From: Bolinopsis microptera
Lineage: Eukaryota > Ctenophora > Tentaculata > Lobata > Bolinopsidae
NCBI RefSeq assembly: GCF_026151205.1
Contig: NC_087082.1
Location: 16,153,365 to 16,217,364, forward strand
DNA: 64,000 bases
Direction: 5' to 3'
Shown here: positions 516-64,000 of the stretch, piece after piece
Layout: each line of letters starts with the position of its first letter
How positions within the stretch are numbered: the first letter of the stretch is position 1
Notes under the pieces: model-generated
What the model saw: only the letters and a program-made list of their open reading frames with translations
The model's database searches: none
Told to the model about the DNA's origin: nothing
Translations under genes and position numbers: made by a program

Positions 516-648
516 GGTAGTTCTGGTCAGATTTCTGTATATCATATTATTCTTTGTGCCAAATAACAAACTTTGCCGAGTATATAGGTAGTTCTGATCA
601 GATCTCTGTATATCCTCGTCTTCTTTGAGCCAGATAACGAACTTTTCC
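516..648 (-). repeat. 62-bp tandem duplication of a receptor tail
   Basis: Bases 587-648 encode the last residues of the GPCR at 598-1683. A diverged copy of the same segment lies just downstream at 516-577, separated by 9 bases. The copy still aligns end to end but has an internal stop in the receptor frame, so it is a decayed duplicate in the 3' flank and not coding sequence. Confidence 0.75.
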
Positions 649-1683
649 ATAGATGGTGGGTGGTAGAAGCAGGACTTTTGTTATGTAGTTTCTGTACCGT
701 GCTCTCAGTTCTGGTTTACGAAGGATCAGGATGGTTGGGAATACTGCTGCGTTTATTAAGGGAAGGGTGAATTGTAACAATGCGATGAGGGGTAATGGGA
801 AGATATATTCCCACCAGTCAGCGATTGTATTCACGCAGTACAAAGAGACGCTAATAAAGTACAGTAACGAGATTAGAAACACTGTTAAGTTAACTTGGTT
901 CGCAGTGTTCAGCTGTGGGTTTTCGTGACCTCCAAAGGCTTTCTTTACATAGATCATCTGAAGAATCATGCATACAAGCACGATCAAGCAAGGCAAACCA
1001 AACTGAACTAAAGCCATAACTATGTACACGATAGGGTAGATAAGGTCAGACAATGCAAAGTAACGCTTCATCAACCTTAATACAAGATATGTTGTGCCGT
1101 CTCCGATTGTTTCTATGTCATTCATCATGTGCCATGCTCCCACGTGACCACTACATTTTGGGTTATCTTTATGTCTAGTTATGTAACCATTCCAGGCCCA
1201 AACATCAATAATGCACAGGACTAGGAGAATGGACGGGTAAATGAAAATAAATATCTTCAAAACTCGGTTATTCAGACTGTAAAATGGACGCATTATGTTG
1301 ATGGTCTTCACAACCGTTAGCGCAAGAACGAAATACGTGGAAGTAACTTGGCAGAGTAAGCCAAACGTTTGGCAGACCAGAAAAGTCCAAGGATGCATCC
1401 TCATAGACGGGGTCTTCAAGCACAGCAGTGATATTGAGCCTCGTCCTATCTCTGAACACGCACTTCCAATGTCCACAGCAGCAACCATAATAAAGAATAG
1501 GTACGAAATCCTTCTCCAGTCCTTGTGGTAATCATATACGATCATGGCGTTCTGGATTATGATATAAATAGCTATAGTGATATTGAGTGGGGATATATAC
1601 TGAAAGCCCCATTCATGACCATCTACAACTATGGAGGTACTAGGAGGCGAGTTTGTGGTACTCATATTGTTTGTCCAGATCAT
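598..1683 (-). CDS. Divergent class A-like 7TM receptor (intronless)
   Basis: A 361-residue open frame with seven hydrophobic segments. It fits a rhodopsin-like G-protein-coupled receptor in the plasma membrane. The short N-terminus has NxS/T glycosylation sites (NMS near residue 6, NIT before TM1). The expected disulfide cysteines appear at the start of TM3 (LVCQTF) and in extracellular loop 2 (PKCSG). The DRY position at the end of TM3 reads roughly VKTINIMRPF. The TM7 NPxxY position reads NAAVFPTI, followed by a basic tail, so both signature motifs are degenerate. The start at 1683 is the first ATG after an in-frame TAG upstream; ATG at 1665 is an alternative. The ligand is unknown. It could be a lineage-specific orphan or chemosensory-type receptor. 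The gene call is firm, the subfamily is not. Confidence 0.8.
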   Translation of the reverse strand: MIWTNNMSTTNSPPSTSIVVDGHEWGFQYISPLNITIAIYIIIQNAMIVYDYHKDWRRISYLFFIMVAAVDIGSACSEIGRGSISLLCLKTPSMRMHPWTFLVCQTFGLLCQVTSTYFVLALTVVKTINIMRPFYSLNNRVLKIFIFIYPSILLVLCIIDVWAWNGYITRHKDNPKCSGHVGAWHMMNDIETIGDGTTYLVLRLMKRYFALSDLIYPIVYIVMALVQFGLPCLIVLVCMILQMIYVKKAFGGHENPQLNTANQVNLTVFLISLLYFISVSLYCVNTIADWWEYIFPLPLIALLQFTLPLINAAVFPTILILRKPELRARYRNYITKVLLLPPTIYGKVRYLAQRRRGYTEI

Positions 1684-3252: not shown

Positions 3253-6200
3253 TCACATTAGAGATGTCTGATTGCTGTTAGATTGTTCGACGATTCTGTC
3301 ATCTCCAATTTGCCTAGCTGTGACAACTTCGCCTAACTCGACAGTTTCAGCAGTGGTTGATAGTCCCAGTATTGTTCTTAATGTTTGTATAACCCTCTGT
3401 AATCCCTTAGTTAATGTTTCTGTAAGCGTTTGATAAAATTCTGTTCTGGTAATGAAGCTTCCTAGAATCTGGAAAGGGATTTTCATTTTTATTAAGATTG
3501 CCAAGTTGTTACTATAAATCAGAGGATTCATAACGAAGTTGATCGGGAGGATGATCACGGAGAACACACTATACCAAGGAGTGGCATCCAGGACTTCAAG
3601 GGAGTGTAGGACACAGATCACTATGAAGGGGATCCAGCAAAGGAAATCAGTGGTAATTATAAGGCAGATTTTTCGGTCAACTTTTCGATTACGTTGGAAA
3701 ATCTCCCGATTGCTTCCAGCCAAATGTATTTTTCTAGATGATTTTTGAGACAGGTAGCCAATGATCAAGTACGAGACTGCGATCAATATGAAGCACACCA
3801 AGTTCAAGGCAAGGATGGTCCACACGAAGTCTCTTTGTGGGTCATCGTTTTTTACAAAATATTTAAACAGGCAGACTCCGTCGTTTCCATAGAAATCAAT
3901 CTTCGGGATCTCTGCCGTAAAGTCGCGGTATAGAAAATCGTGAGAATACATTTCAGTGACCATTTGGCGAATCATTCTCCAGCTCAATTTAGTGTCCATC
4001 ATTCTTCCGTAGTACGCTTCAAGGACTGCTAAAACTTTTTGCTTGTTTGGCGTACCTATGAACACTTTTAGCTCTTCTGCAAAGTTTACTCCGTTGACAA
4101 AGAAGTTCTCAAATTTGACAACAATTGGGATGATAGCAATACTCAGGGACGATATCATCATCATTAACAAACTCAAGAAGACCTGGGATGATTTGATCCA
4201 GGTAACTACACCCGGGATTCTCATAGAATAGTATATTCCATAGGTTCTGGCAAGGCTCAGGCCACACATGGCAAATAGTGAGAGTTGAGACCCTATGGTG
4301 CTAAGGACACCGATTTCTGAGCATGTGCCGCTTGTAATCCAATTGATTTGTTTGGGACAATAATCTTCTCGAAAGATAATCCCATCATAGATTGCGATTA
4401 AGAATATGTAGCAGCCGACTAGAAGGTCTCCAAAGGATATTGTGATGATAAAGGATTTGTTTAGTAGAGCAATTATTGTCCTGCATCTATTTAAAGTAAA
4501 GATGCTTTTTGAAATGATGAAAAGGTTAGCTAAGACAGCTAAAAATCCTATTGACCATGAAAAGACTTTCAAAATAATATCCTCTAAAATATGTCTTTAA
4601 CAATCGACATTGCATTCATCAGATAAGTCCAAACAATCAAACAATCCATTACACTTACTGGTCTTGGGTATGTAATATCCTGTTGAATTGCATTTAAAAT
4701 GGTTAGTACAGGATTCCTCGTCTGAACCATCTCCACAATCATCCACAAGATTACAAACTTTCGAGTAATCAATACACTTGACCTTGTTGTCGCATACAAA
4801 ATATCTGTTTGTGTAGAAATCTCCAAACGACTTTGTGAAAAATGCTAGGTATTCATTATTAGCTACTGTTCCAATCCTGTTTGGGTATTGCTCAGGACAC
4901 ACCTCGTATCTATGGATGTTTTTCAATGGACAAGAAAAACTAATACAACTGTAAGTACAACTAGTGTACACGTACAGCTCTCCAAACATATGGTCACAAC
5001 TTTGAAGTTCTGTCGGTATGATCACTGAAGTTCTCTCTGCTACGCCGAAAAAACGGTGATTTGGGAAGATGAATGATGGAAAGGTTGTGCAGTCCTTAAA
5101 ATGTCCAATGTTTTTCAGCCCCTTTATACAAAACGAGAGATGTTTACTTAAACCTCTGTCGGTAGTTAGAACAGCCGTAGAAATTCTTGCAGAACTTCTG
5201 GACTCAGAGCAGACTTTATTTTAATTTCCACAGGTGTGGAGTCCGTCACAAAGACCACTCAGCTCCACAAACCCAGGGCCAGGCTCATCCCATGGACAGA
5301 GAAAGACATTTTGACAAGTTTTGTCAACTGTCACCACTCTCACTGACTTTCCTTTCCCACAAGTGGGCCATATCTTCTCTTCATCTCTACCATCGATACA
5401 GTCCATCACGTCATCTCCCAACCAAGAGAGTGGTATTTTCAGTTCTCCTGCCCTTCCAACACGTCTTTTTCATTTTTATTGGGTCTTTTCGCGGCAACTG
5501 ATGTGAGTCTCATCTTTATTATCGTTACAGTCTTGTTGTCCGTCACACATCAGATGTTTGTGCACATGGCAATCAAATGAAGGTCCTAAACAGACGTTTT
5601 CAATGTTATCATCACAAATTTGCTCACCGAAACAAATAACGTACTTTGAAACTGTAGACATGTATCCGTTTATCTGACAAGAGACGGCCACCCTGTCAGG
5701 ATCAGAGCAATTTGTCTGCTCTGATGCATAATCTGCGCAATAATTCTTCAGTACGTTACCGGAAGAGTCATGCAGAACTGCACATCTAGTATAATTATGA
5801 ACTGGCACGATTCGATGTGTCCGTACATGTTCACAAGTGTTCACTGTATCGTTTGTTACGGTACAGTTTCCTTCGTCTTCTCCATTTGGACAATGCACCA
5901 CTCTATCACATATCCCAGATAATCCTTCCAGATAAGTATAATGTATTTTTCCAGGGAGTCCCTCGAAGTTGCAATACATGCCATACCTGTATCCGTTACA
6001 GATAGCTTCATTCTCACAATCAAATGCATCACAGACATCATCACAGGCCATGGTAGTGGGAACTCGTTTGCCACACAGTAAGGTCGTCATGTTGGTAGGA
6101 TCAGGGCAACCTTCTTCATCCAATTCAGTATTAACACAGTCAAGATTACCATCACAATCGATACCAATATCAAGGGTCGACCGAGTCCTCGGCCTCGGCC

Positions 6201-14140: not shown

Positions 14141-15277
14141 ATGAAAATGTCATATAAAATACTTTCAGTTAGAATGACTGATTACCTGCAGGCAGCTGAC
14201 ATTGGATCTATCGTTCTAGGCATAATTGGGGCAATGATAAATGCATTTCTCTTCTATGTCACTGTTAAACAGCGTGCAATGAATGAAAAATTTGCATTTC
14301 TATTCAAAAACCTTGCATTAAATGACTTCATTAATGCTGTAGCTATTCCTATCTGCTGGTACTGGTTGGCATTCTCTAAAGATGAAGCTGAAAACTTTGC
14401 ATTGTCTTCAAAAGAGCTGACACTCCTGTCTGTATCCCTGTGCACAATAAGTGTTCAGCATCCATTAATTGCTCTGATTGGGTTACTTCGTTATAAAATA
14501 CTTCTAGGACAAGGATCATTTCGAAAGTTTTCTCTCAGGAAAACAAAGCTGTTTGTGGTCATAGTTTGGATTTGTTGTTTTGTCATCCCCCTGCTGGTGT
14601 ATTTTGTGTCATTGATAACCGACAGCAAATCTGAGGTCCTAGATATTCTGCCCAGGATAAATTCTACTGTCTTTCTCTTAGGTGCCTCCTGTGCTATAGC
14701 AATTTTGCTGGTCTTGCTCATCAGGATGGCGAAGATCGTTTACTTCTGGCCGCTGCCAACTTCAACAAGTGCAAGCATTAAAAAATCCCTAGTGAATGTA
14801 TTCTTATTCATGCTTTTCACTGGGTTATTTAGCATCTTACCTGGAATGTTCTGTTTCGAAATGATTGCATGTGGTCCTTCACTGAATCACAAGATAATTC
14901 CTTCACGTTCCATCTGCTCTAAGGCTAGAACTGTCCTGTTTCATGACGTCAAGCTAGAATTTTCGCTCATGTTCTTATCTCTGTGTCTCATGTCGATTTC
15001 CAATGGGGCAGTGTTCTTACTTCAACCATCACTGAGATCACAGTTGTTAAAATCTCTGTGTTGCAAGTCTGACATTGTACAAGACCAGAGACCAATATCA
15101 GCATATGTTTTTGTTGACCCATTGGATCTCATGAAGCAGGAAATTGAAGATGAAAAAGAACCCAGCGTGTTAACTCGTCTGAGAAATGTATCTTCTTATG
15201 GGACTTATGGCAGCTGTGATGAGTCAAACATGCCACGCTCAGATAACTTGACAGCATCCATGAGATCTGATAACTAA
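14141..15277 (+). CDS. Divergent class A-like 7TM receptor (intronless)
   Basis: A 378-residue open frame with seven hydrophobic helices. TM1 begins near residue 20 (IGSIVLGIIGAMINAF). TM2 contains NLALNDFINAV, matching the class A N-L-A-x-x-D signature. TM3 ends in LLRYK, replacing DRY. TM6 contains FSILPGMFCFEM. TM7 reads SISNGAVFLLQPSLRSQ, replacing NPxxY. A cytoplasmic tail of about 75 residues follows, with paired cysteines (LCCKS) and many Ser residues, consistent with palmitoylation and phosphorylation. Starts at 14141, 14147 or 14174 are possible. The last follows a tttcag that could be a splice acceptor and would give a shorter N-terminus. The ligand is unknown. The gene is 0.8 kb upstream of ST7 on the same strand. 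Confidence 0.8.
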   Translation: MKMSYKILSVRMTDYLQAADIGSIVLGIIGAMINAFLFYVTVKQRAMNEKFAFLFKNLALNDFINAVAIPICWYWLAFSKDEAENFALSSKELTLLSVSLCTISVQHPLIALIGLLRYKILLGQGSFRKFSLRKTKLFVVIVWICCFVIPLLVYFVSLITDSKSEVLDILPRINSTVFLLGASCAIAILLVLLIRMAKIVYFWPLPTSTSASIKKSLVNVFLFMLFTGLFSILPGMFCFEMIACGPSLNHKIIPSRSICSKARTVLFHDVKLEFSLMFLSLCLMSISNGAVFLLQPSLRSQLLKSLCCKSDIVQDQRPISAYVFVDPLDLMKQEIEDEKEPSVLTRLRNVSSYGTYGSCDESNMPRSDNLTASMRSDN

Positions 15278-16112: not shown

Positions 16113-18517
16113 ATGACAGGGAACAAGGGAGTAGTGTCGGACACACTAGACTCCCTCAGCTTCTGGGTAAGCTGGTCATGGACTTACCTTCTTATGCTCT
16201 GGTTCCTTCTCATTATGTTTCTCATCTGGTTTCTGAGGTAAGCAAACAAGAAATGCTAAATAGCAATTTGGTTTTATATGTCATGATACCTTCATTAATT
16301 GTACGAGAAATTATTTACAGTTAGTGAAGTATAATAAATAATATTATATTTTACTCTATTATATAATTTTTAGAAGATTGTTTAGATGAACATAACTACC
16401 TACCCATACTAAATAGTTATTACCTTTAACAACTAGCCTGGTAACCTGCCAAATACTGTGGTAAATCTCAAAAATCGGTGATCAGTCAGTACTTGATGAA
16501 TGTAAATAATTTCTTTTATTTTCAGAGCTCCATTGCGACTTCATGAAAATTTAGATCAGCTGGGGTTCTTCATGAATAGTCTGACCCCGAAATTTTACGT
16601 TGCTCTGACAGGAACATCATCTGTTATCTCTGGGATTATCCTTATCTTTGAGTGGTGGTAAGATACCAAATAAATCATCATTATCAATAATCAGCTACAT
16701 ATGAGAACAAATTATAGGCAAATTATGAGTTCAATATTTCATTGATTGTCTTCCCTCGAACACCCTGAACTTATATACCCCACCACGTGCAGGTATTTTC
16801 ACAAGCACGGTAATTCGCTGATAGAGCAGCTGGCACTGACCTATGTGGCTCCTTTTATCGGTGGTATAGATCTGCCTGAGAAGCCAGCACAGAGTGAATG
16901 TAAAGTTTGGAGAAACCCCATGAACCTCATCAGGGGATGTGAATACTTCAAGTTCATGCAGGTTAGTTGAAATGTTCTTCCAAATTTGAAGATAATCACC
17001 TCCTCACCAGTAGCTGAGCCCATGAATTCTGATTATATCTGTCTGATCTTGTTTATTATAAATTTATCTAGATTATTCCATGTAAAGTGCTGGTATCATC
17101 ATACCAATATAATAATGGATATGATATTTATTTATTCATATTGACAATAAACGATGTTATTGATATATTATCAATAGGAAGCATCCTGCAACTCATAAAA
17201 AATATAATTTTATAAATATCTAAATTAAATTTGAATATTTATTCGTGTTTTAAAAACTGTATAACTCAATCCAATTCATTTGTTAAAAACCGTTATATTC
17301 CTCAGGTGACAGGTAACAGTCCACTAAGCCACTACGACATGAACCTTACAGCACAGGACCAACAGATGTTCTTCTGTCCGGATGTAGCAGGAGCTGGAGA
17401 CAAAGGAGACGAGATGATGGCACTAGCCTGGAGATCTGTAGACACAGAGAAACGCATTCAACTAGCATTGCAGGCAGTTAATGGTAATTCTAACTGTGCC
17501 TCCGCATACGTTTTGCTGGCTGAGGAGTGTGCGTCTACAGTCCCAGAAGCTGATAAGTTCTTCAGACAGGCTCTGAAAATAGCTGATAATAACATCAGGA
17601 AGTTTGTGTCAGTTCCCTCGCACGATGTCAAGGCAAACAGTCTTCATCGCAGAGATATTAATATCTGCGTTTATGCAAGAAGAAGGGTCGCCATGTGTCT
17701 GAGAAAGATGGGAAAGCTCAAAGAATGCATCAAAATAACACGTGAACTTATCAAAGAATTCCCTCTTATGAGCGTGCTTCACATCCATGAGAACCTCATA
17801 GAGGCACTACTCGCACAAAAAGCGTACAACGACGTCCAGGCTCTACTCACCAGATACGACGATCTGACCCTGCCCAAATCAGCTGTTATCTGCTACAGCG
17901 CTGCACTCCTCAAAATCCGTCCAGTCTGTGAGAAGTTCTTTGCTGATGTGACCGTTAAGAAGGGTCTGACTACACATCAGTTTGACGCAGTGGAAGCTCT
18001 TCAGAGAGCAGTCGAGTTTAACCCCCACGTTCCTCAGTATCTTTTGGAAGAAAAGCCGATCATTCTGCCTCCAGAGCATTTGCTAAAAAGGGGGGACTCA
18101 GAGGCAGTAGCTTACTCATTCTACCACGCTGCGCACTGGAAGGAAGTGCCTGGTTCTATAAAATTCCTGGAATGCTTCTGGAAAGACACTTTCAAGCTTA
18201 TCCCCTTTCCGTTAGAGAAAGGTAAGTTATTCCACCCTTATACCAGTGGGACAGAGGAGACTGATAGAGAACTTTTACCTCTTTACCACGATGTATCAGT
18301 TTACCCCAAGAAAGAGTTACCCTTCTTCCTTGTATTTACAGCTGGACTGTGTCTCTTTACCTTATCTCTGGCTCTTCTCACACATTTTTATCCCATATTT
18401 ATGGGTGAGCTGGCTCGAATAGCGCTTGAATATTTTGCCACACCCTTTGCCATGATAGCAGAACAGTTGCAAGCACTTTTACCTCAACAAGTATGGAATT
18501 TATTAACTCGTGCATAA
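16113..18517 (+). CDS. ST7: Suppressor of tumorigenicity 7 protein homologue
   Basis: Four coding exons with GT-AG borders and matching phases: 16113-16237, 16526-16657, 16793-16961 and 17306-18517. They total 1,638 nt, or 545 residues plus stop, close to the vertebrate length of about 585. The N-terminal hydrophobic segment ([19 protein letters not shown]) and [16 protein letters not shown] followed by LIFEWWYFHKHG are diagnostic of ST7. Downstream are the conserved [21 protein letters not shown], the helical TPR-like middle, [24 protein letters not shown] and C-terminal hydrophobic segments. ST7 is a multi-pass membrane protein implicated in growth control in vertebrates; its biochemical role is not settled. 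The large last exon is uninterrupted. The start is the first ATG in frame with the conserved N-terminal segment. Confidence 0.95.
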
Positions 18518-19321: not shown

Positions 19322-52502
<33,181 letters not shown>

Positions 52503-54334
52503 GTAACCGCAGTTACAATTATTGAATTATTGACATTTAGATTTAGGGTTCACGTACACTGATCTAGTTCGACACGTACTCTAGTTTGGCAACTGATTAC
52601 AGAAGTTGGCTAGAAATCACCCCTGTGCTTTATCCAATGCGGTATAAAATAAACCGTACCCTATAATCCAAATCTGTAAACTGCAATACGCAGTGAGTAA
52701 CTTTTAGTAGTCAATTAGTGGGTGGGTGGCATAAACATTCTTCAAACATCATAAATTCGGTGCTAAACGTTTGTCTTGCCAAGATGAACAAAATTCATGG
52801 CATAAAATGGCGATTTACCCAAAGGTTTTTCCATTTTCTCCATAGAAAGTTTATTTATTTTCTGCCATTGGTCTCCGGAACGTCATCTACGAGGGATACC
52901 GGTACAGGCAGAAAGGGTGATGAAAATTCGTACTGGAAATGTGTCAACAATATTTTCGGCGGCCGACTTTCTCGTTACATACACGACTGTTATTTAAGAC
53001 TATTATTATAGATGACTCCACTGCAATGCTGTGAAATAACAGCTCCACTGAAAAACTAAGCACTAAACCCAATACTTCTGCTGGGAGCTCCGTCAGAAGC
53101 TGAAACGGGAAAGTTCCGATACTCCCGTGCCTGTTGGCTGACGCTGTGGGACCTGTAGCAGTCTAGCACTTACATGACCTACGTAACTCAATCTTAATCT
53201 GTTTCGAGGGATTGCGATCCAGCTTGAAACGTCGCCAAGGGTAAACGTACTGTAGTGGGACACGTACTAGTTCGAAACCTGATGTTCGACAAGACCCCCC
53301 TCTTTCGCACTTGTGTCGCACTACAGTCCAGGTAGCGTACTGTAAAGCGATCATGTCATATTTCCAAGCTCAGATCCTATCCTATCCTATCTTACTAATG
53401 GACCATTAAGTGATCTGATATACGAACTATGTTTTCCCAATTTAAAAGGGTAGTTATACTTTCTGAAAAGGTTTGACCATTCTAATGGACATGTCGATCT
53501 TATTTCATTGTACACAGCGATACCAAGTTGAAGTACACAAAATATATGAGATAACCGTGATAGGTCAAAAGTACAATTTTGCAACCACCGCACTTAAATG
53601 TTGCCGTTGATACAAACTGGAGAGCCCACCAGTGTGAAAGTCATTTTCACCTGATTGGAGCTAAAACCTAACCTTCCTGCCAATAATAACTTCAACAAAT
53701 TGGAATACTTGAAGTATATGGGATCTTTGGTTGCTTGTTGAATTAAGTGTTTATTTATACGATTTTATGCACAGTATCCATTTAGAATTATCAAAGCCAA
53801 TCTTTATCCCTTTAGCTTTACCTGGTCGCAGGTCTCTTATAGTTATCGACCTTCGGTACGTGTCAAGCTAGAGCCCAGGTAGCCTACCCTAGTTCGACAG
53901 TTGCAGTTATCTTGTCGAACTTGGATGTTTTCCGAACTAAAGTACGGGTAACTAGATTAAGTTGGTTACAGTAACAGGAGTTCGGTTGAGGAACATCTGC
54001 TGACGAAGCCAGCTATTCATAATTATATTATAGTTTGACTTTAAGCATAAACAGAAATAAAACAAGCTTGTAATGAACGAGAATATGTAAAATTCAAAGA
54101 GCAAGGTCACTAATCAATTATAAGTTAAATGATAATGAAAAGTTATCTAAATATCAATAAATGCTCCCACAAAAAGATAGAAAAAGCACTACTAGTACTT
54201 ATACTGTGAACTCTAGTTACTTTTGAAAAAAAGTCTCTTAAATGTCCATTCAATTTCAATATTGCTTACCGATGGTAAATTAACCAGTCCTTCAAGTATC
54301 GCAGATTGCTTTCAGGAGTTCTGGATCGTGGTGT
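52503..54334. other. Non-coding stretch between the last seen ASAP exon and the kringle gene
   Basis: It follows the donor of ASAP exon 22, so it is probably intronic. It contains dispersed-repeat pieces shared with 60.7-63.9 kb: aaattcggtgctaaa near 52748; gcagtacgcagtgag-like at 52685; gaactatgttttcccaattt at 53424; and gataccaagttgaagtacac at 53519. Further ASAP exons (proline-rich, SH3) were sought and not recognised. Confidence 0.45.
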
Positions 54335-57300
54335 CTAATTGGAAACACATTCTTCAAAGCACCAATCCCACCGAGTTGACCCAGTTGTGTAGCACCAAGG
54401 TGCACCTTCATTACTAGGATCTCTGCAGTAGTTATGATCACCAAGTCCGGAGTCAGGGTAGTTTTCAGGGAGATAAATGTGAGTGTATGGTGTCTGACTG
54501 CTCCATCTCTGGCATGTCGCTCCATTCTTTGTTATGGCCACATCTCCACGATATTCTTCACCTTCGACACACTTAGGCTCTTCTGGTTCCGGTTGTGCAC
54601 ATTCTTCAAAGCACCAATCCCACCGAGTTGACCCAGTTGTGTAGCACCAAGGTGTACCTTCACTACTAGGATCTCTGCAATAGTTGTGATCACCAAGTCC
54701 GGAGTCAGGGTAGTTTTCAGGGAGATAAATGTGAGTGTATGGTGTCTGACTGCTCCATCTCTGGCATGTCGCTCCATTCTTTGTTATGGCCACATCTCCA
54801 CGATATTCTTCACCTTCGACACACTTATGCTCTTCTGGTTCCGGTTGTGCACATTCTTCAAAGCACCAATCCCACCGAGTTGACCCAGTTGTGTAGCACC
54901 AAGGTGCACCTTCATTACTAGGATCTCTGCAGTAGTTGTGATCACCAAGTCCGGAGTCAGGGTAGTCTTCAGGAAGATATCTGTGAGTGTATGGTGTCTG
55001 TCTGCTCCATCTCTGACATGTTGCTCCATTGATTGTTATGGCCACATCTCCACGATATAAACACTCTTCTGTTACTGGTTCTGGTTCAAATAATCCTGGT
55101 AGTACTTCTGGTTCAACTACTTGTGGTTCAAGTACTTCTGGTTCAAGTACTTCTGGTAGCACTTCTGGTTCCGGTTGTGCACATTCTTCAAAGCACCAAT
55201 CCCACCGAGTTGACCCAGTTGTGTAGCACCAAGGTGCACCTTCACTACTAGGATCTCTGCAGTAGTTGTGATCACCAAGTCCGGAGTCAGGGTAGTCTTC
55301 AGGAAGATATATGTGAGTGTATGGTGTCTCTCTGCTCCATCTCTGACATGTTGCTCCATTCTTTGTTATGGCCACATCTCCACGATAGTCTTCACCTTCG
55401 ACACACTTAGGCTCTTCTGGTTCCGGTTCAAGTACTTCTGGTTCCGGTTGTGCACATTCTTCAAAGCACCAATCCCACCGAGTTGACCCAGTTGTGTAGC
55501 ACCAAGGTGCACCTTCATTACTAGGATCTCTGCAATAGTTATGATCACCAAGTCCGGAGTCAGGGTAGTCTTCAGGAAGATATTTGTGAGTGTATGGTGT
55601 CTGACTGCTCCATCTCTGGCATGTTGCTCCATTGATTGTTATGGCCACATCTCCACGATATTCTTCACCTTCGACACACTTAGGCTCTTCTGGTTCCGGT
55701 TGTGCACATTCTTCAAAGCACCAATCCCACCGAGTTGACCCAGTTGTGTAGCACCAAGGTGCACCTTCACTACTAGGATCTCTGCAATAGTTGTGATCAC
55801 CAAGTCCGGAGTCAGGGTAGTCTTCAGGAAGATATATGTGAGTGTATGGTGTCTGTCTGCTCCATCTCTGACATGTTGCTCCATTGATTGTTATGGCCAC
55901 ATCTCCACGATATTCTTCACCTTCGACACACTTAGGCTCTTCTGGTTCCGGTTGTGCACATTCTTCAAAGCACCAATCCCACCGAGTTGACCCAGTTGTG
56001 TAGCACCAAGGTGCACCTTCATTACTAGGATCTCTGCAGTAGTTATGATCACCAAGTCCGGAGTCAGGGTAGTCTTCAGGAAGATATATGTGAGTGTATG
56101 GTGTCTGTCTGCTCCATCTCTGACATGTTGCTCCATTCTTTGTTATGGCCACATCTCCACGATATTCTTCACCTTCGACACACTTAGGCTCTTCTGGTTC
56201 CGGTTGTGCACATTCTTCAAAGCACCAATCCCACCGAGTTGACCCAGTTGTGTAGCACCAAGGTGCACCTTCATTACTAGGATCTCTGCAATAGTTGTGA
56301 TCACCAAGTCCGGAGTCAGGGTAGTCTTCAGGAAGATATATGTGAGTGTATGGTGTCTGTCTGCTCCATCTCTGACATGTTGCTCCATTGATTGTTATGG
56401 CCACATCTCCACGATATAAACACTCTTCTGTTACTGGTTCTGGTTCAAGTACTTCTGGTAGTACGTCTGGTTCAACTACTTGTGGTTCAAGTACTTCTGG
56501 TTCAAGTACTTCTGGTAGCACTTCTGGTTCCGGTTGTGCACATTCTTCAAAGCACCAATCCCACCGAGTTGACCCAGTTGTGTAGCACCAAGGTGCACCT
56601 TCATTACTAGGATCTCTGCAATAGTTGTGATCATCAAGTCCGGAGTCAGGGTAGTCTTCAGGAAGATATATGTGAGTGTATGGTGTCTGTCTGCTCCATC
56701 TCTGACATGTTGCTCCATTCTTTGTTATGGCCACATCTCCACGATAGTCTTCACCTTCAACACACTGCTCAGGCTCTTCTGGTTCCGGTTGTGCACATTC
56801 TTCAAAGCACCAATCCCACCGAGTTGACCCAGTTGTGTAGCACCAAGGTGCACCTTCATTACTAGGATCTCTGCAGTAGTTATGATCACCAAGTCCGGAG
56901 TCAGGGTAGTTTTCAGGGAGATAAATGTGAGTGTATGGTGTCTGACTGCTCCATCTCTGACATGTTGCTCCATTGATTGTTATGGCCACATCTCCACGAT
57001 ATTCTTCACCTTCGACACACTTAGGCTCTTCTGGTTCCGGTTGTGCACATTCTTCAAAGCACCAATCCCACCGAGTTGACCCAGTTGTGTAGCACCAAGG
57101 TGCACCTTCATTACTAGGATCTCTGCAGTAGTTATGATCACCAAGTCCGGAGTCAGGGTAGTTTTCAGGGAGATAAATGTGAGTGTATGGTGTCTGACTG
57201 CTCCATCTCTGGCATGTCGCTCCATTCTTTGTTATGGCCACATCTCCACGATATTCTTCACCTTCGACACACTTAGGCTCTTCTGGTTCCGGTTGTGCAC

Positions 57301-59089
57301 ATTCTTCAAAGCACCAATCCCACCGAGTTGACCCAGTTGTGTAGCACCAAGGTGCACCTTCACTACTAGGATCTCTGCAATAGTTGTGATCACCAAGTCC
57401 GGAGTCAGGGTAGTCTTCAGGAAGATAAATGTGAGTGTATGGTGTCTGTCTGCTCCATCTCTGACATGTTGCTCCATTCTTTGTTATGGCCACATCTCCA
57501 CGATAGTCTTCACCTTCAACACACTGCTCAGGCTCTTCTGGTTCCGGTTGTGCACATTCTTCAAAGCACCAATCCCACCGAGTTGACCCAACTGTGTAGC
57601 ACCAAGGTGCACCTTCATTACTAGGATCTCTGCAATAGTTGTGATCACCAAGTCCGGAGTCAGGGTAGTCTTCAGGAAGATATATGTGAGTGTATGGTGT
57701 CTGTCTGCTCCATCTCTGACATGTTGCTCCATTGATTGTTATGGCCACATCTCCACGATATAAACACTCTTCTGTTACTGGTTCTGGTTCAAATAATCCT
57801 GGTAGTACTTCTGGTTCAACTACTTGTGGTTCAAGTACTTCTGGTTCAAGTACTTCTGGTAGCACTTCTGGTTCCGGTTGTGCACATTCTTCAAAGCACC
57901 AATCCCACCGAGTTGACCCAGTTGTGTAGCACCAAGGTGCACCTTCATTACTAGGATCTCTGCAATAGTTGTGATCACCAAGTCCGGAGTCAGGGTAGTC
58001 TTCAGGAAGATATATGTGAGTGTATGGTGTCTGTCTGCTCCATCTCTGACATGTTGCTCCATTGATTGTTATGGCCACATCTCCACGATATTCTTCACCT
58101 TCGACACACTTAGGCTCTTCTGGTTCCGGTTGTGCACATTCTTCAAAGCACCAATCCCACCGAGTTGACCCAGTTGTGTAGCACCAAGGTGCACCTTCAC
58201 TACTAGGATCTCTGCAATAGTTGTGATCACCAAGTCCGGAGTCAGGGTAGTCTTCAGGGAGATAAATGTGAGTGTATGGTGTCTGTCTGCTCCATCTCTG
58301 ACATGTTGCTCCATTGATTGTTATGGCCACATCTCCACGATATAAACACTCTTCTGTTACTGGTTCTGGTTCAAGTACTTCTGGTAGTACGTCTGGTTCA
58401 ACTACTTGTGGTTCAAATACTTCTGGTTCAAGTACTTCTGGTAGTACTTCTGGTAGCACTTCTGGTTCCGGTTGTGCACATTCTTCAAAGCACCAATCCC
58501 ACCGAGTTGACCCAGTTGTGTAGCACCAAGGTGCACCTTCACTACTAGGATCTCTGCAATAGTTGTGATCACCAAGTCCGGAGTCAGGGTAGTCTTCAGG
58601 AAGATATATGTGAGTGTATGGTGTCTGTCTGCTCCATCTCTGACATGTTGCTCCATTGATTGTTATGGCCACATCTCCACGATATAAACACTCTCCTGTT
58701 ACTGGTTCTGGTTCAAGTACTTCTGGTAGTACTTCTGGTTCAACTACTTGTGGTTCAAGTACTTCTGGTAGTACTTCTGGCTCAAGTACTTCTGGTAGTA
58801 CTTCTGGTTCTGGTTCTGGAATTGGTTCTGGTGCTGGTGTTGCCGGTATAACTTCTGGTTCTGGTTCAAGTACTTCTGGTTTCGGTTTTTTACATTTAGC
58901 CTGACCGCACAATTTTACCATTTGATTTTCTAATCTTTTACACTTCTTATCACTACTGCCTGCGCACGAGCTCTCGTAACCTTTGTCTTTACATTCTTTC
59001 CATTGTTTTTTAATCCTCTTGCTACATTTTCCGGTGACAACTGCCAGTACACCAGTCAAGATGAAGACAGTCAATAGAAGTCTTCCCAT
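54335..59089 (-). CDS. Secreted 16-kringle protein with RGD in every kringle
   Basis: A single open exon of 1,584 residues from ATG 59089. An in-frame ATG at 59116 gives nine more residues, but the inner start begins a clean signal peptide (MGRLLLTVFILTGVLAVVTG). Next comes a short basic Cys domain (KCSKRIKKQWKECKDKGYES), a Pro-Glu-Val-Leu linker, then 16 kringles. Each has six cysteines in kringle order (CLYRGD, TCQRW, NYCRDP, PWCYT, DWCFEEC). All 16 read YRGDVAI, placing an integrin-type RGD where typical kringles have YRGT or similar. Long PEVLEPEV linkers follow kringles 1, 3, 8 and 13; the others are joined by short EPEEPKCVEGEEY-type links that add a cysteine. No protease domain. Likely role: extracellular adhesion, matrix or defence protein (inference). 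The stop follows CFEECVSN. Confidence 0.9.
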   Translation of the reverse strand: MGRLLLTVFILTGVLAVVTGKCSKRIKKQWKECKDKGYESSCAGSSDKKCKRLENQMVKLCGQAKCKKPKPEVLEPEPEVIPATPAPEPIPEPEPEVLPEVLEPEVLPEVLEPQVVEPEVLPEVLEPEPVTGECLYRGDVAITINGATCQRWSRQTPYTHIYLPEDYPDSGLGDHNYCRDPSSEGAPWCYTTGSTRWDWCFEECAQPEPEVLPEVLPEVLEPEVFEPQVVEPDVLPEVLEPEPVTEECLYRGDVAITINGATCQRWSRQTPYTHIYLPEDYPDSGLGDHNYCRDPSSEGAPWCYTTGSTRWDWCFEECAQPEPEEPKCVEGEEYRGDVAITINGATCQRWSRQTPYTHIYLPEDYPDSGLGDHNYCRDPSNEGAPWCYTTGSTRWDWCFEECAQPEPEVLPEVLEPEVLEPQVVEPEVLPGLFEPEPVTEECLYRGDVAITINGATCQRWSRQTPYTHIYLPEDYPDSGLGDHNYCRDPSNEGAPWCYTVGSTRWDWCFEECAQPEPEEPEQCVEGEDYRGDVAITKNGATCQRWSRQTPYTHIYLPEDYPDSGLGDHNYCRDPSSEGAPWCYTTGSTRWDWCFEECAQPEPEEPKCVEGEEYRGDVAITKNGATCQRWSSQTPYTHIYLPENYPDSGLGDHNYCRDPSNEGAPWCYTTGSTRWDWCFEECAQPEPEEPKCVEGEEYRGDVAITINGATCQRWSSQTPYTHIYLPENYPDSGLGDHNYCRDPSNEGAPWCYTTGSTRWDWCFEECAQPEPEEPEQCVEGEDYRGDVAITKNGATCQRWSRQTPYTHIYLPEDYPDSGLDDHNYCRDPSNEGAPWCYTTGSTRWDWCFEECAQPEPEVLPEVLEPEVLEPQVVEPDVLPEVLEPEPVTEECLYRGDVAITINGATCQRWSRQTPYTHIYLPEDYPDSGLGDHNYCRDPSNEGAPWCYTTGSTRWDWCFEECAQPEPEEPKCVEGEEYRGDVAITKNGATCQRWSRQTPYTHIYLPEDYPDSGLGDHNYCRDPSNEGAPWCYTTGSTRWDWCFEECAQPEPEEPKCVEGEEYRGDVAITINGATCQRWSRQTPYTHIYLPEDYPDSGLGDHNYCRDPSSEGAPWCYTTGSTRWDWCFEECAQPEPEEPKCVEGEEYRGDVAITINGATCQRWSSQTPYTHKYLPEDYPDSGLGDHNYCRDPSNEGAPWCYTTGSTRWDWCFEECAQPEPEVLEPEPEEPKCVEGEDYRGDVAITKNGATCQRWSRETPYTHIYLPEDYPDSGLGDHNYCRDPSSEGAPWCYTTGSTRWDWCFEECAQPEPEVLPEVLEPEVLEPQVVEPEVLPGLFEPEPVTEECLYRGDVAITINGATCQRWSRQTPYTHRYLPEDYPDSGLGDHNYCRDPSNEGAPWCYTTGSTRWDWCFEECAQPEPEEHKCVEGEEYRGDVAITKNGATCQRWSSQTPYTHIYLPENYPDSGLGDHNYCRDPSSEGTPWCYTTGSTRWDWCFEECAQPEPEEPKCVEGEEYRGDVAITKNGATCQRWSSQTPYTHIYLPENYPDSGLGDHNYCRDPSNEGAPWCYTTGSTRWDWCFEECVSN
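54340..58695 (-). repeat. Coding kringle array, 252-bp unit with higher-order repeat
   Basis: Repeat spacing measured at a fixed point is 252-255 bp for neighbours, 273 bp once, and 330-342 bp where a long linker intervenes. Long linkers divide the array into blocks of 1, 2, 5, 5 and 3 kringles. The two five-kringle blocks have periods of 1,344 and 1,359 bp, so a five-unit segment was duplicated as a whole. Units differ at few bases, indicating recent expansion or conversion. Assembly copy number should be treated with caution. Confidence 0.9.
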
Positions 59090-59186: not shown

Positions 59187-59400
59187 ACTATTTCCGGGAA
59201 TTATATAATGCACTAAAACTCGTCGAAACTGAGAGCTGATAACTTGCAGATTTTTCCCGCAAGGAACTGAAGGTATTTTGAGCACACACTGCGAGTCACC
59301 TCAGACTGGCTGGCTGGAAGTTTCAAAACAAATAACAGTGGCTCACTATATATTACACACTATATTATATCATGCACACGTATCACATTACAAATATTAC
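59187..59400. repeat. Diverged element copy just upstream of the kringle gene
   Basis: This 215-bp segment aligns with the left arm of the inverted-repeat element that starts about 240 bp further on (shared gggaattatat, cactaaaactcg, gagagctgataa, cgtatcacattaca). It begins about 100 bp upstream of the kringle start codon, so the gene's promoter probably lies in transposon-derived DNA. Confidence 0.65.
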
Positions 59401-59427
59401 AGGAGCCACCGTCAATAGTTATAATAC

Positions 59428-60652
59428 TATAATACCTTCTGGGAATTATATCCACTAAAACTCGGGGACACTGAGAGCTGATAATTTGCACATTTTTCCC
59501 GCAAGGGAAGCGAAGGTATTATCAGCATAGACTCAGACTGGCTGGCGGCAAGTTGTAAAACAAAGAACACTGGCGTTCTATATATTAGACACTATATTGT
59601 ATCATGCGCACGTATCACATTACACCCCTTCCAATCGGAACCGGAAAATATTATAATATAATAATAGCTTGGCTATTGAGTGCTGAGCGCGATAATTCCC
59701 GACAGCTTGCTGGAGGGAACGCGCGGGCATAGGTGCAGATTTCGTTTTGAGGTGAACTTTTATGTTCCCGAGAAATCTTCTTAAGTTTGCTTTTTTTTCT
59801 CCTCGGGCACATTCGTAACCTACGGGCCAGGTAAACCTAAACTACATATTGACCGTTATGTATGTCGGTATCTGTTGAGGAGCCAAATCATCTGAAAAGC
59901 CCTAAACCTATATTTTGGTCAGGCACGTAGCCAGGATTTTTCTTTGGGGGGGGGGCTGTCGGCGAGCGAAGCTGCAAGCTGTGGCAGGGGTCTGGGGGCG
60001 CAGCCCCCAGCAGGGTCCAGGGGCGGACCCCAATGGCGGGGGCTAGGGGGGGCGCAGACCCCCGGAAAAATTTTGCGAAATAGGGTCTTTTAGGCTAAAT
60101 TGAAAGTTTAATGAATTTACAAAAATGTATGGTTTGGCATAATCATTGCCTACAATCCTGACCTGAGTAAATTCCCCCTTTCAGACTTTATTTTGGGTTG
60201 AAAATTGAGTTTATCGAGAGGAAGTGAAAAATCTCTGGTTCAAATTTGGATTTGAAGCCATGTTTAATTTTTTCTGTGGAGGTCACTTTTTTGCGCAGAA
60301 AGCGCTCGATTTTAGGGGAAAAAAATTTATGTTTGCTTTTAATTTTTATGGTCCCGTCGGCACCTGAAATCGACGAAATCTGCAGGGGTGCGCGCGGGCA
60401 CGAAATTGCCAAGCTATTATGTATTATAATATTTTCCGGTTCCGATTGGAAGGGGTGTAATCCGATACGTGCGCATGATACAATATAGTGTCTAATATAT
60501 AGAACGCCAGTGTTATTTGTTTTACTACTTGCCGCCAGCCAGTCTGAGTCTATGCTGATAATACCTTCGCTTCCCTTGCGGGATTTATCGGCAAATTATC
60601 AGCTCTCAGTGTCCGAGACTTTTAGTGGATATAATTCCCGGAAGGTATTATA
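59428..60652. mobile_element. 1.2-kb element with about 245-nt inverted arms
   Basis: The left arm (59428-59670) and right arm (60405-60652) are reverse complements with scattered changes (taccttctgggaattatat, gcgaaggtattatcagcata, ccttccaatcggaaccggaa). The interior has the core gataattcccgacagcttgc at 59691 and a G-rich segment near 59945-60065 (cgtagccaggatttttcttt, ggggcgcagcccccagcag). No transposase frame. The right arm recurs at 63400-63630. Confidence 0.8.
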
Positions 60653-60654
60653 AC

Positions 60655-60760
60655 AAATAATATTTTCGCTTCTTCGGGCTGCAAATTCCTTCCAGCAAGC
60701 TGTCGTGAATTATCACGCGTAGCTCGAAGAAGCGAAGGTATTATTGTATTATAAATTCGG
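60655..60760. mobile_element. Small hairpin element with conserved core
   Basis: Arms ttcgcttcttcgggct and agctcgaagaagcgaa enclose the reverse complement of the gataattc-gacagcttgctgg core found at 59691 and 63337. It abuts the right arm of the 1.2-kb element, and probably belongs to the same family. Confidence 0.6.
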
Positions 60761-63295: not shown

Positions 63296-63632
63296 AATCA
63301 AATACAATAATACCTTGGCTGCTTTGGGCCGCTCGTGATAATTCCCGACAGCTTGCTGGAGGGAATTTGCGGCCCGAAGCAGCCAAGGTGTTATTTCTTA
63401 TAATATTTTCCGGTTCCGATTAGGAAGGGGTGTAATCCGATACGTGCGCATGATACAATATAGTGTCTAATATATAGAACGCCAGTGTTATTTGTTTTAC
63501 AACTTGCCGCCAGCCAGTCTGAGGTCTATGCTGATAATACTTTCGCTTCCCTTGCGGGATATATCGGCAAATTATCAGCTCTCAGTGTCCGAGACTTTTA
63601 GTGGATATAATTCCCGGAAGGTATTATAATAT
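63296..63632. mobile_element. Hairpin-core element plus right arm, third family copy
   Basis: Arms accttggctgctttgggccgc and gcggcccgaagcagccaaggt (about 63312-63393) enclose the core gataattcccgacagcttgc at 63337. Bases 63400-63632 repeat the right arm of the element at 59428-60652 with few changes. No left arm is seen. The rest of the window to 64000 holds no recognised feature. Confidence 0.7.
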
Positions 63633-64000
63633 AAATTGCTCTCTCATCTAATCTTGAATGCCAATTAAATGTCAACTTATGTCAGCTTCTTGAGTACAGA
63701 TGATTATAAGCCATTTGATTGGTACACCCATTGCAAAAAAAGCACTAATGTGAATGCCAGCCATTTACTACATAACCATCCACCATCGTTCATTGCTTCT
63801 AAAACGCCCAACTCTCGTCCGAATAGTATTGTAAACCCTGGTCATTAGGCAAGTTCCTTAGTTCGCACAAGATGGACTACGTTTTTCCCAATTTAACTTT
63901 AGAAGATTGTCACAGGAAGAACTTTTAAAATAGGCTTATGATATTTCACATTTCTAATTTTTTAATTGAATTTGAACAATAACGTCCTTTAAACTATCCT

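Follow-up and report, generated by a model that had tools for sequence, protein, structure and literature searches.

A protease-free array of sixteen near-identical kringles, each carrying RGD, in the ctenophore Bolinopsis microptera

Introduction

Large arrays of kringles that lack an active protease have been described in hedgehog apo(a) (PMC11555715) and in the flatworm protein Tmed-krg1 (PMC9229212). The latter, from Theama mediterranea, carries six kringles and is reported to be expressed in anchor cells and to give a non-adhesive phenotype upon knockdown (PMC9229212). Other published accounts describe kringles combined with a membrane-attack domain in an annelid protein (PMC2762978), in groups of two to three in proteases of lower chordates (PMC6337849) and at the N-termini of receptors in amphioxus (PMC2246102); given the amphioxus receptors, a kringle alone does not imply an adhesive role.

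The residues named for the lysine site of kringles are D54, D56, W60, F62, W70, R35 and R69 (PMC11555715). According to the same source, a Glu at position 56 accompanies a smaller site in apo(a) KIV7, and the sites of KIV5-8 are weak (PMC11555715).

Here we analyze a gene for a 16-kringle protein of B. microptera, found in a 64,000-nucleotide stretch of contig NC_087082.1 (positions 16,153,365 to 16,217,364, forward strand), hereafter the window. All positions below are those of the window. An earlier note on this DNA had drawn attention to an RGD tripeptide repeated in every kringle, and its claims are considered together with our results.

Results

The coding sequence lies at 54335..59089 on the minus strand, with a start ATG at 59089 and a stop codon at 54335-54337, and encodes 1584 aa in one uninterrupted frame. 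The earlier note had described the gene as a single exon. The uninterrupted coding sequence agrees with this, although the gene may still have an intron in its 5′ UTR. The first 20 residues of the translated protein (59030..59089) form a hydrophobic leader that looks, by eye, like a signal peptide; they are followed by a basic N-terminal head with six Cys (aa 21-69, 58883..59029; pI 9.7, net charge +11, 14 Lys among 49 residues) and an acidic Pro/Glu/Val stretch (aa 70-133, 58691..58882; net charge −18). Sixteen kringles come next, joined by Pro/Glu linkers of two size classes, 9-16 aa and 39-43 aa. The protein stops three residues past kringle 16, so that the frame holds no C-terminal domain. 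For the mature chain, we computed a pI of 4.26 and a net charge of −194; we found no N-glycosylation sequon in it and saw, by eye, no transmembrane stretch. Every kringle holds six of the protein's 102 Cys and the head accounts for the remaining six, so that there is no odd one.

Pfam analysis of the whole open reading frame gave 16 matches to PF00051 (Kringle; E 3.3e-264, 854.5 bits vs. a cut-off of 34.3), and no other Pfam domain scored above cut-off in the 1584 aa. In particular, no trypsin-like domain follows the kringles as it does in plasminogen family proteins, which bears out the earlier claim that the frame lacks a protease domain. No protease domain was matched either in the subset of other frames submitted to Pfam (10 other window ORFs and 9 further frames), and a kringle HMM applied to all six frames (open frames of at least 20 aa) found no more kringles elsewhere in the 64-kb window. 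The 16 kringles and the apparent signal peptide, judged by eye, support the idea of a multivalent, protease-free array that is probably secreted. The head matches no Pfam family above cut-off: Serglycin, with an E of 0.083 that falls short of its cut-off, was the sole hit when E values up to 1 were allowed, and a comparison with the PDB returned four matches, the best at E 0.58. A ShKT-like fold, suggested for the head by its cysteine pattern, was dropped as no match supported it.

The kringles, located by regular expression on the minus strand, fall into two forms, both with RGD. Type A (71 aa, beginning CLYRGD; n = 5) comprises kringles 1 (58478..58690), 2 (58136..58348), 4 (57554..57766), 9 (56210..56422) and 14 (54851..55063). 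Type B (75 aa, beginning CVEGE[ED]YRGD; n = 11) comprises kringles 3 (57884..58108), 5 (57299..57523), 6 (57047..57271), 7 (56795..57019), 8 (56540..56764), 10 (55958..56182), 11 (55706..55930), 12 (55454..55678), 13 (55181..55405), 15 (54599..54823) and 16 (54347..54571). The form goes with the preceding linker: type B kringles follow the 9-16 aa linkers, type A kringles 2, 4, 9 and 14 follow those of 39-43 aa, and kringle 1 follows the 64-aa acidic stretch. All 16 contain six Cys. The distance from Cys1 to Tyr9 is 2 in type A and 6 in type B vs. 8 in plasminogen kringles, and the start of the domain is thereby shortened. The best PDB match of a window kringle is human plasminogen, with kringle 3 as the best domain (79.5 bits, 57% identity).

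At the DNA level, the kringle cores are 94.2-100% identical (mean 97.1%, 120 pairs), and 55 of 69 core codons are invariant across the 16 copies. All four combinations occur at 41 of 55 informative site pairs in the cores. Moreover, core DNA is identical between K1 and K11, K3 and K9, and K6 and K16, although K1 and K9 are of type A but K11 and K3 of type B. Because of these four-combination site pairs and of identical cores shared across types, we infer recombination or conversion among the repeats, and the array, as judged from its sequence, is recent or homogenised by recombination.

We then consider the lysine site, where all 16 kringles read S54, E56, W60, Y62, R69, W70 and Y35. The aromatic trough (W60, Y62 and W70) is retained together with R69 in every copy, the acidic pair 54/56 is incomplete (S54 with E56) in every copy, and Arg/Lys35 is replaced by Y35, again in 16/16. 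With its trough kept and its charged centres half lost, the predicted lysine cleft is altered. Strong canonical lysine binding by these kringles is unlikely because D54 and R/K35 are replaced, and the loss of these residues may abolish lysine binding entirely. Binding by these kringles may instead be weak or altered, and weak sites present in 16 copies could act jointly. An unlikely but still credible explanation is that the protein is a lysine-binding array like plasminogen, apo(a) or Tmed-krg1, as the authors of the latter propose for their protein, and that it grips lysine-rich partners, perhaps the basic heads of its neighbours in a head-to-tail assembly. The trough and R69 kept in all copies, the E56 found also in weak apo(a) sites (PMC11555715) and the richness of the head in Lys would all fit such a protein; against it, the Ser at 54 and the Tyr at 35 remove half of each charged centre from all 16 kringles.

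Regular expression searches confirmed that RGD is present in 16/16 kringles and always inside YRGDVAI, as the earlier note had read. Among nine human plasminogen/HGF kringles, YRG is found in six: all nine have Tyr9 and Gly11, and 6/9 have Arg at position 10. In none of the nine is residue 12 an Asp (T, K, N, T, K, T, L, T, N). The kringles of tPA (K2) and KREMEN1 read YRGT. By these comparisons, YRG is ordinary kringle sequence and D12 alone is unusual. When the 69-aa core was shuffled, RGD appeared in 3,789 of 100,000 trials (3.8%, a figure that reflects composition alone), and 42 of the 67 three-residue windows of the core protein are as invariant as RGD. The 16 RGDs amount to about one event, because the copies are near-identical and exchanging and hence non-independent. 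The array exceeds chance; the RGD does so less, because shuffles yield it at this frequency, YRG is the consensus and the copies are non-independent. A single origin followed by multiplication would most simply account for the tripeptide, which by itself would be no evidence of an integrin grip. The view of RGD as the telling feature of this protein is consequently unsupported: D12 is the single novelty next to a canonical YRG, the copies lack independence and most windows of the core are equally invariant.

That integrins are bound by the RGD of every kringle, which would make the protein a 16-valent RGD adhesive or opsonin, seems quite unlikely to us. The presence of RGD in all copies agrees with it. 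So does the variability of residue 12, mostly polar in the nine human kringles, which would suit a surface side chain, and Cys1, just 2 or 6 residues before Tyr9, would bring RGD close to the domain edge. A contact with integrin has also been proposed, by docking, for the urokinase kringle (PMC2323671). However, urokinase has a lone kringle in a protease, docked through residues 113-123 at the hairpin tip and not through RGD or the YRG site (PMC2323671). Furthermore, the canonical YRG and a Gly11 invariant in nine human kringles point to a backbone probably fixed by the fold, with no free RGD loop, and the RGD copies are non-independent. Neither of two AlphaFold2 models, built from alignments of the window's own repeats only, reached confidence (mean pLDDT 41.2 and 49.7), and Foldseek and VIA-align comparisons of the second with the PDB gave no confident match. 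Less probable still is the fuller version, in which a shortened kringle with YRG turned into RGD, repeated 16 times on acidic spacers, forms a high-avidity polymer offering RGD to integrins from a disulfide-locked scaffold. A functional RGD would make this protein a naturally occurring polyvalent ligand of integrins, displayed on kringles.

Each of the 15 distances between successive repeats (252, 255, 273, 330 or 342 nt) is divisible by three, and the array is therefore kept in frame. Over the 120 kringle pairs, mean dN is 0.021 and mean dS 0.065 (dN/dS about 0.3). Together with the in-frame spacing, this ratio suggests maintenance of the array at the protein level, and nothing in it is specific to RGD. 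A low-function array, arising as an assembly artefact or because tandem copies multiplied neutrally in a decaying gene, is very improbable, for although the 252-nt kringle array is one of numerous tandem repeats that TRF reports across the window, 4.75 kb run without stop or frameshift, the spacings keep the frame in 15/15 cases and dN/dS is about 0.3. Near-identical repeats are liable to copy-number error in assembly, and the kringle copy number of 16 could be wrong.

Directly upstream of the kringle gene, related repeats are found in both orientations (59208-59670, 60422-60750 and 63301-63649; 231-nt arms, 94% complementary). These are perhaps short mobile elements, and they may include the promoter region of the kringle gene. 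The first AATAAA past the kringle stop on the gene's strand is at 53750-53755; the window contains 118 such motifs vs. 101 expected, and we give this no weight. Downstream, on the same strand, AbfB-like frames (PF05270) occupy 47021-47985 (-), with a match above cut-off at 47332-47568 (E 5.5e-05) and one below cut-off at 47021-47242 (E 0.0065); beside them, near 47980, a leader-like ATG frame was seen by eye. This locus perhaps encodes an intron-containing secreted carbohydrate-binding protein.

Elsewhere in the window, an ST7 open reading frame at 17231-18517 (+) covers profile positions 127-533 of PF04184 in one frame (E 5.4e-175), so that this portion must be nearly or wholly free of introns. 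A rhodopsin-type receptor is encoded at 3253-4572 (-) (7tm_1, E 3.8e-10). Both are in keeping with DNA of an animal. Two further ORFs, at 598-1683 (-) and at 14141-15277 (+), resemble receptors by eye, but Pfam matched nothing in them with E of 0.01 or less. TRF also detected tandem arrays at 28406-28939 (41 nt, 13 copies, 96% matches) and 40698-41063 (59 nt, 6.2 copies, 97%). About 91 CA units lie in a row at 28126-28308. Rfam gave no match at gathering score over the window, and no tRNA was found in it.

Discussion

With moderate confidence, we favour a multivalent kringle protein that is secreted, strongly acidic and adhesive or matrix-like in kind, with repeats that exchange sequence and an RGD that is the copied state of a founder. 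Its 16 kringles, presumably disulfide-bonded, would be strung like beads on Pro/Glu spacers, which may be stiff, behind a basic cysteine-rich head. The most likely work of such a molecule would be structural or adhesive, many weak and near-identical faces jointly binding a basic or lysine-rich partner or matrix. Tmed-krg1, whose knockdown is non-adhesive (PMC9229212), provides a precedent for this reading. The array would have grown by tandem duplication and kept its uniformity through unequal crossing-over or gene conversion. A single founder kringle would have gained its Asp after a canonical YRG, and RGD would then have been copied along. Sequence exchange among coding repeats can be seen cleanly in the kringle gene.

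Searches for relatives gave 3 pattern matches in viral contigs with one kringle as query, 8 in the same contigs with a second query and 61 in a further contig collection with a third; none was confirmed, and as the collections consist of viral and prokaryotic contigs, these searches say little about animals. With no relative in viral or prokaryotic contigs, no function is therefore transferable by orthology. According to the earlier note, no protein with this regular kringle-RGD design is known to have been described. Among the matches listed from the open-licence literature, no title or abstract opening mentions a kringle array with RGD, in line with that statement, but protease-free arrays as such are known from hedgehog apo(a) and Tmed-krg1.

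The window array shares several apo(a)-type traits, namely near-identical copies, exchange between copies and no active protease. The free cysteine used by apo(a) for apoB coupling is absent from it, all 102 Cys coming in sixes. Hedgehog apo(a) also consists of a repeated kringle resembling plasminogen K3, without K4, K5 or a protease-like part (PMC11555715), and plasminogen K3 is likewise the best PDB match of the window kringle; hedgehog apo(a) is likened here by description, not by sequence. It is described as a plasma protein that can bond apoB-100 through a free cysteine (PMC11555715). The window protein differs from it in that its kringles have a shortened start and six Cys each, are joined by acidic Pro/Glu linkers and follow a basic head rich in Cys. 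In human apo(a), the KIV-2 repeat unit is given as about 5.5 kb (PMC10487946), vs. a 252-nt coding unit in an uninterrupted coding sequence here.

Tmed-krg1 resembles the window protein as an invertebrate multi-kringle protein in which kringles are the sole named domains, and a value of 4.87, apparently its pI, is tabulated for it (PMC9229212). The main text of that paper has no occurrence of RGD (PMC9229212). Tmed-krg1 is predicted to be membrane-bound and has six kringles (PMC9229212), whereas the window protein has 16 and no transmembrane stretch by eye. With its 16 copies and acidic spacers, the array of this animal represents a further design beyond the apo(a) of primates and hedgehogs and the six-kringle protein of flatworms.
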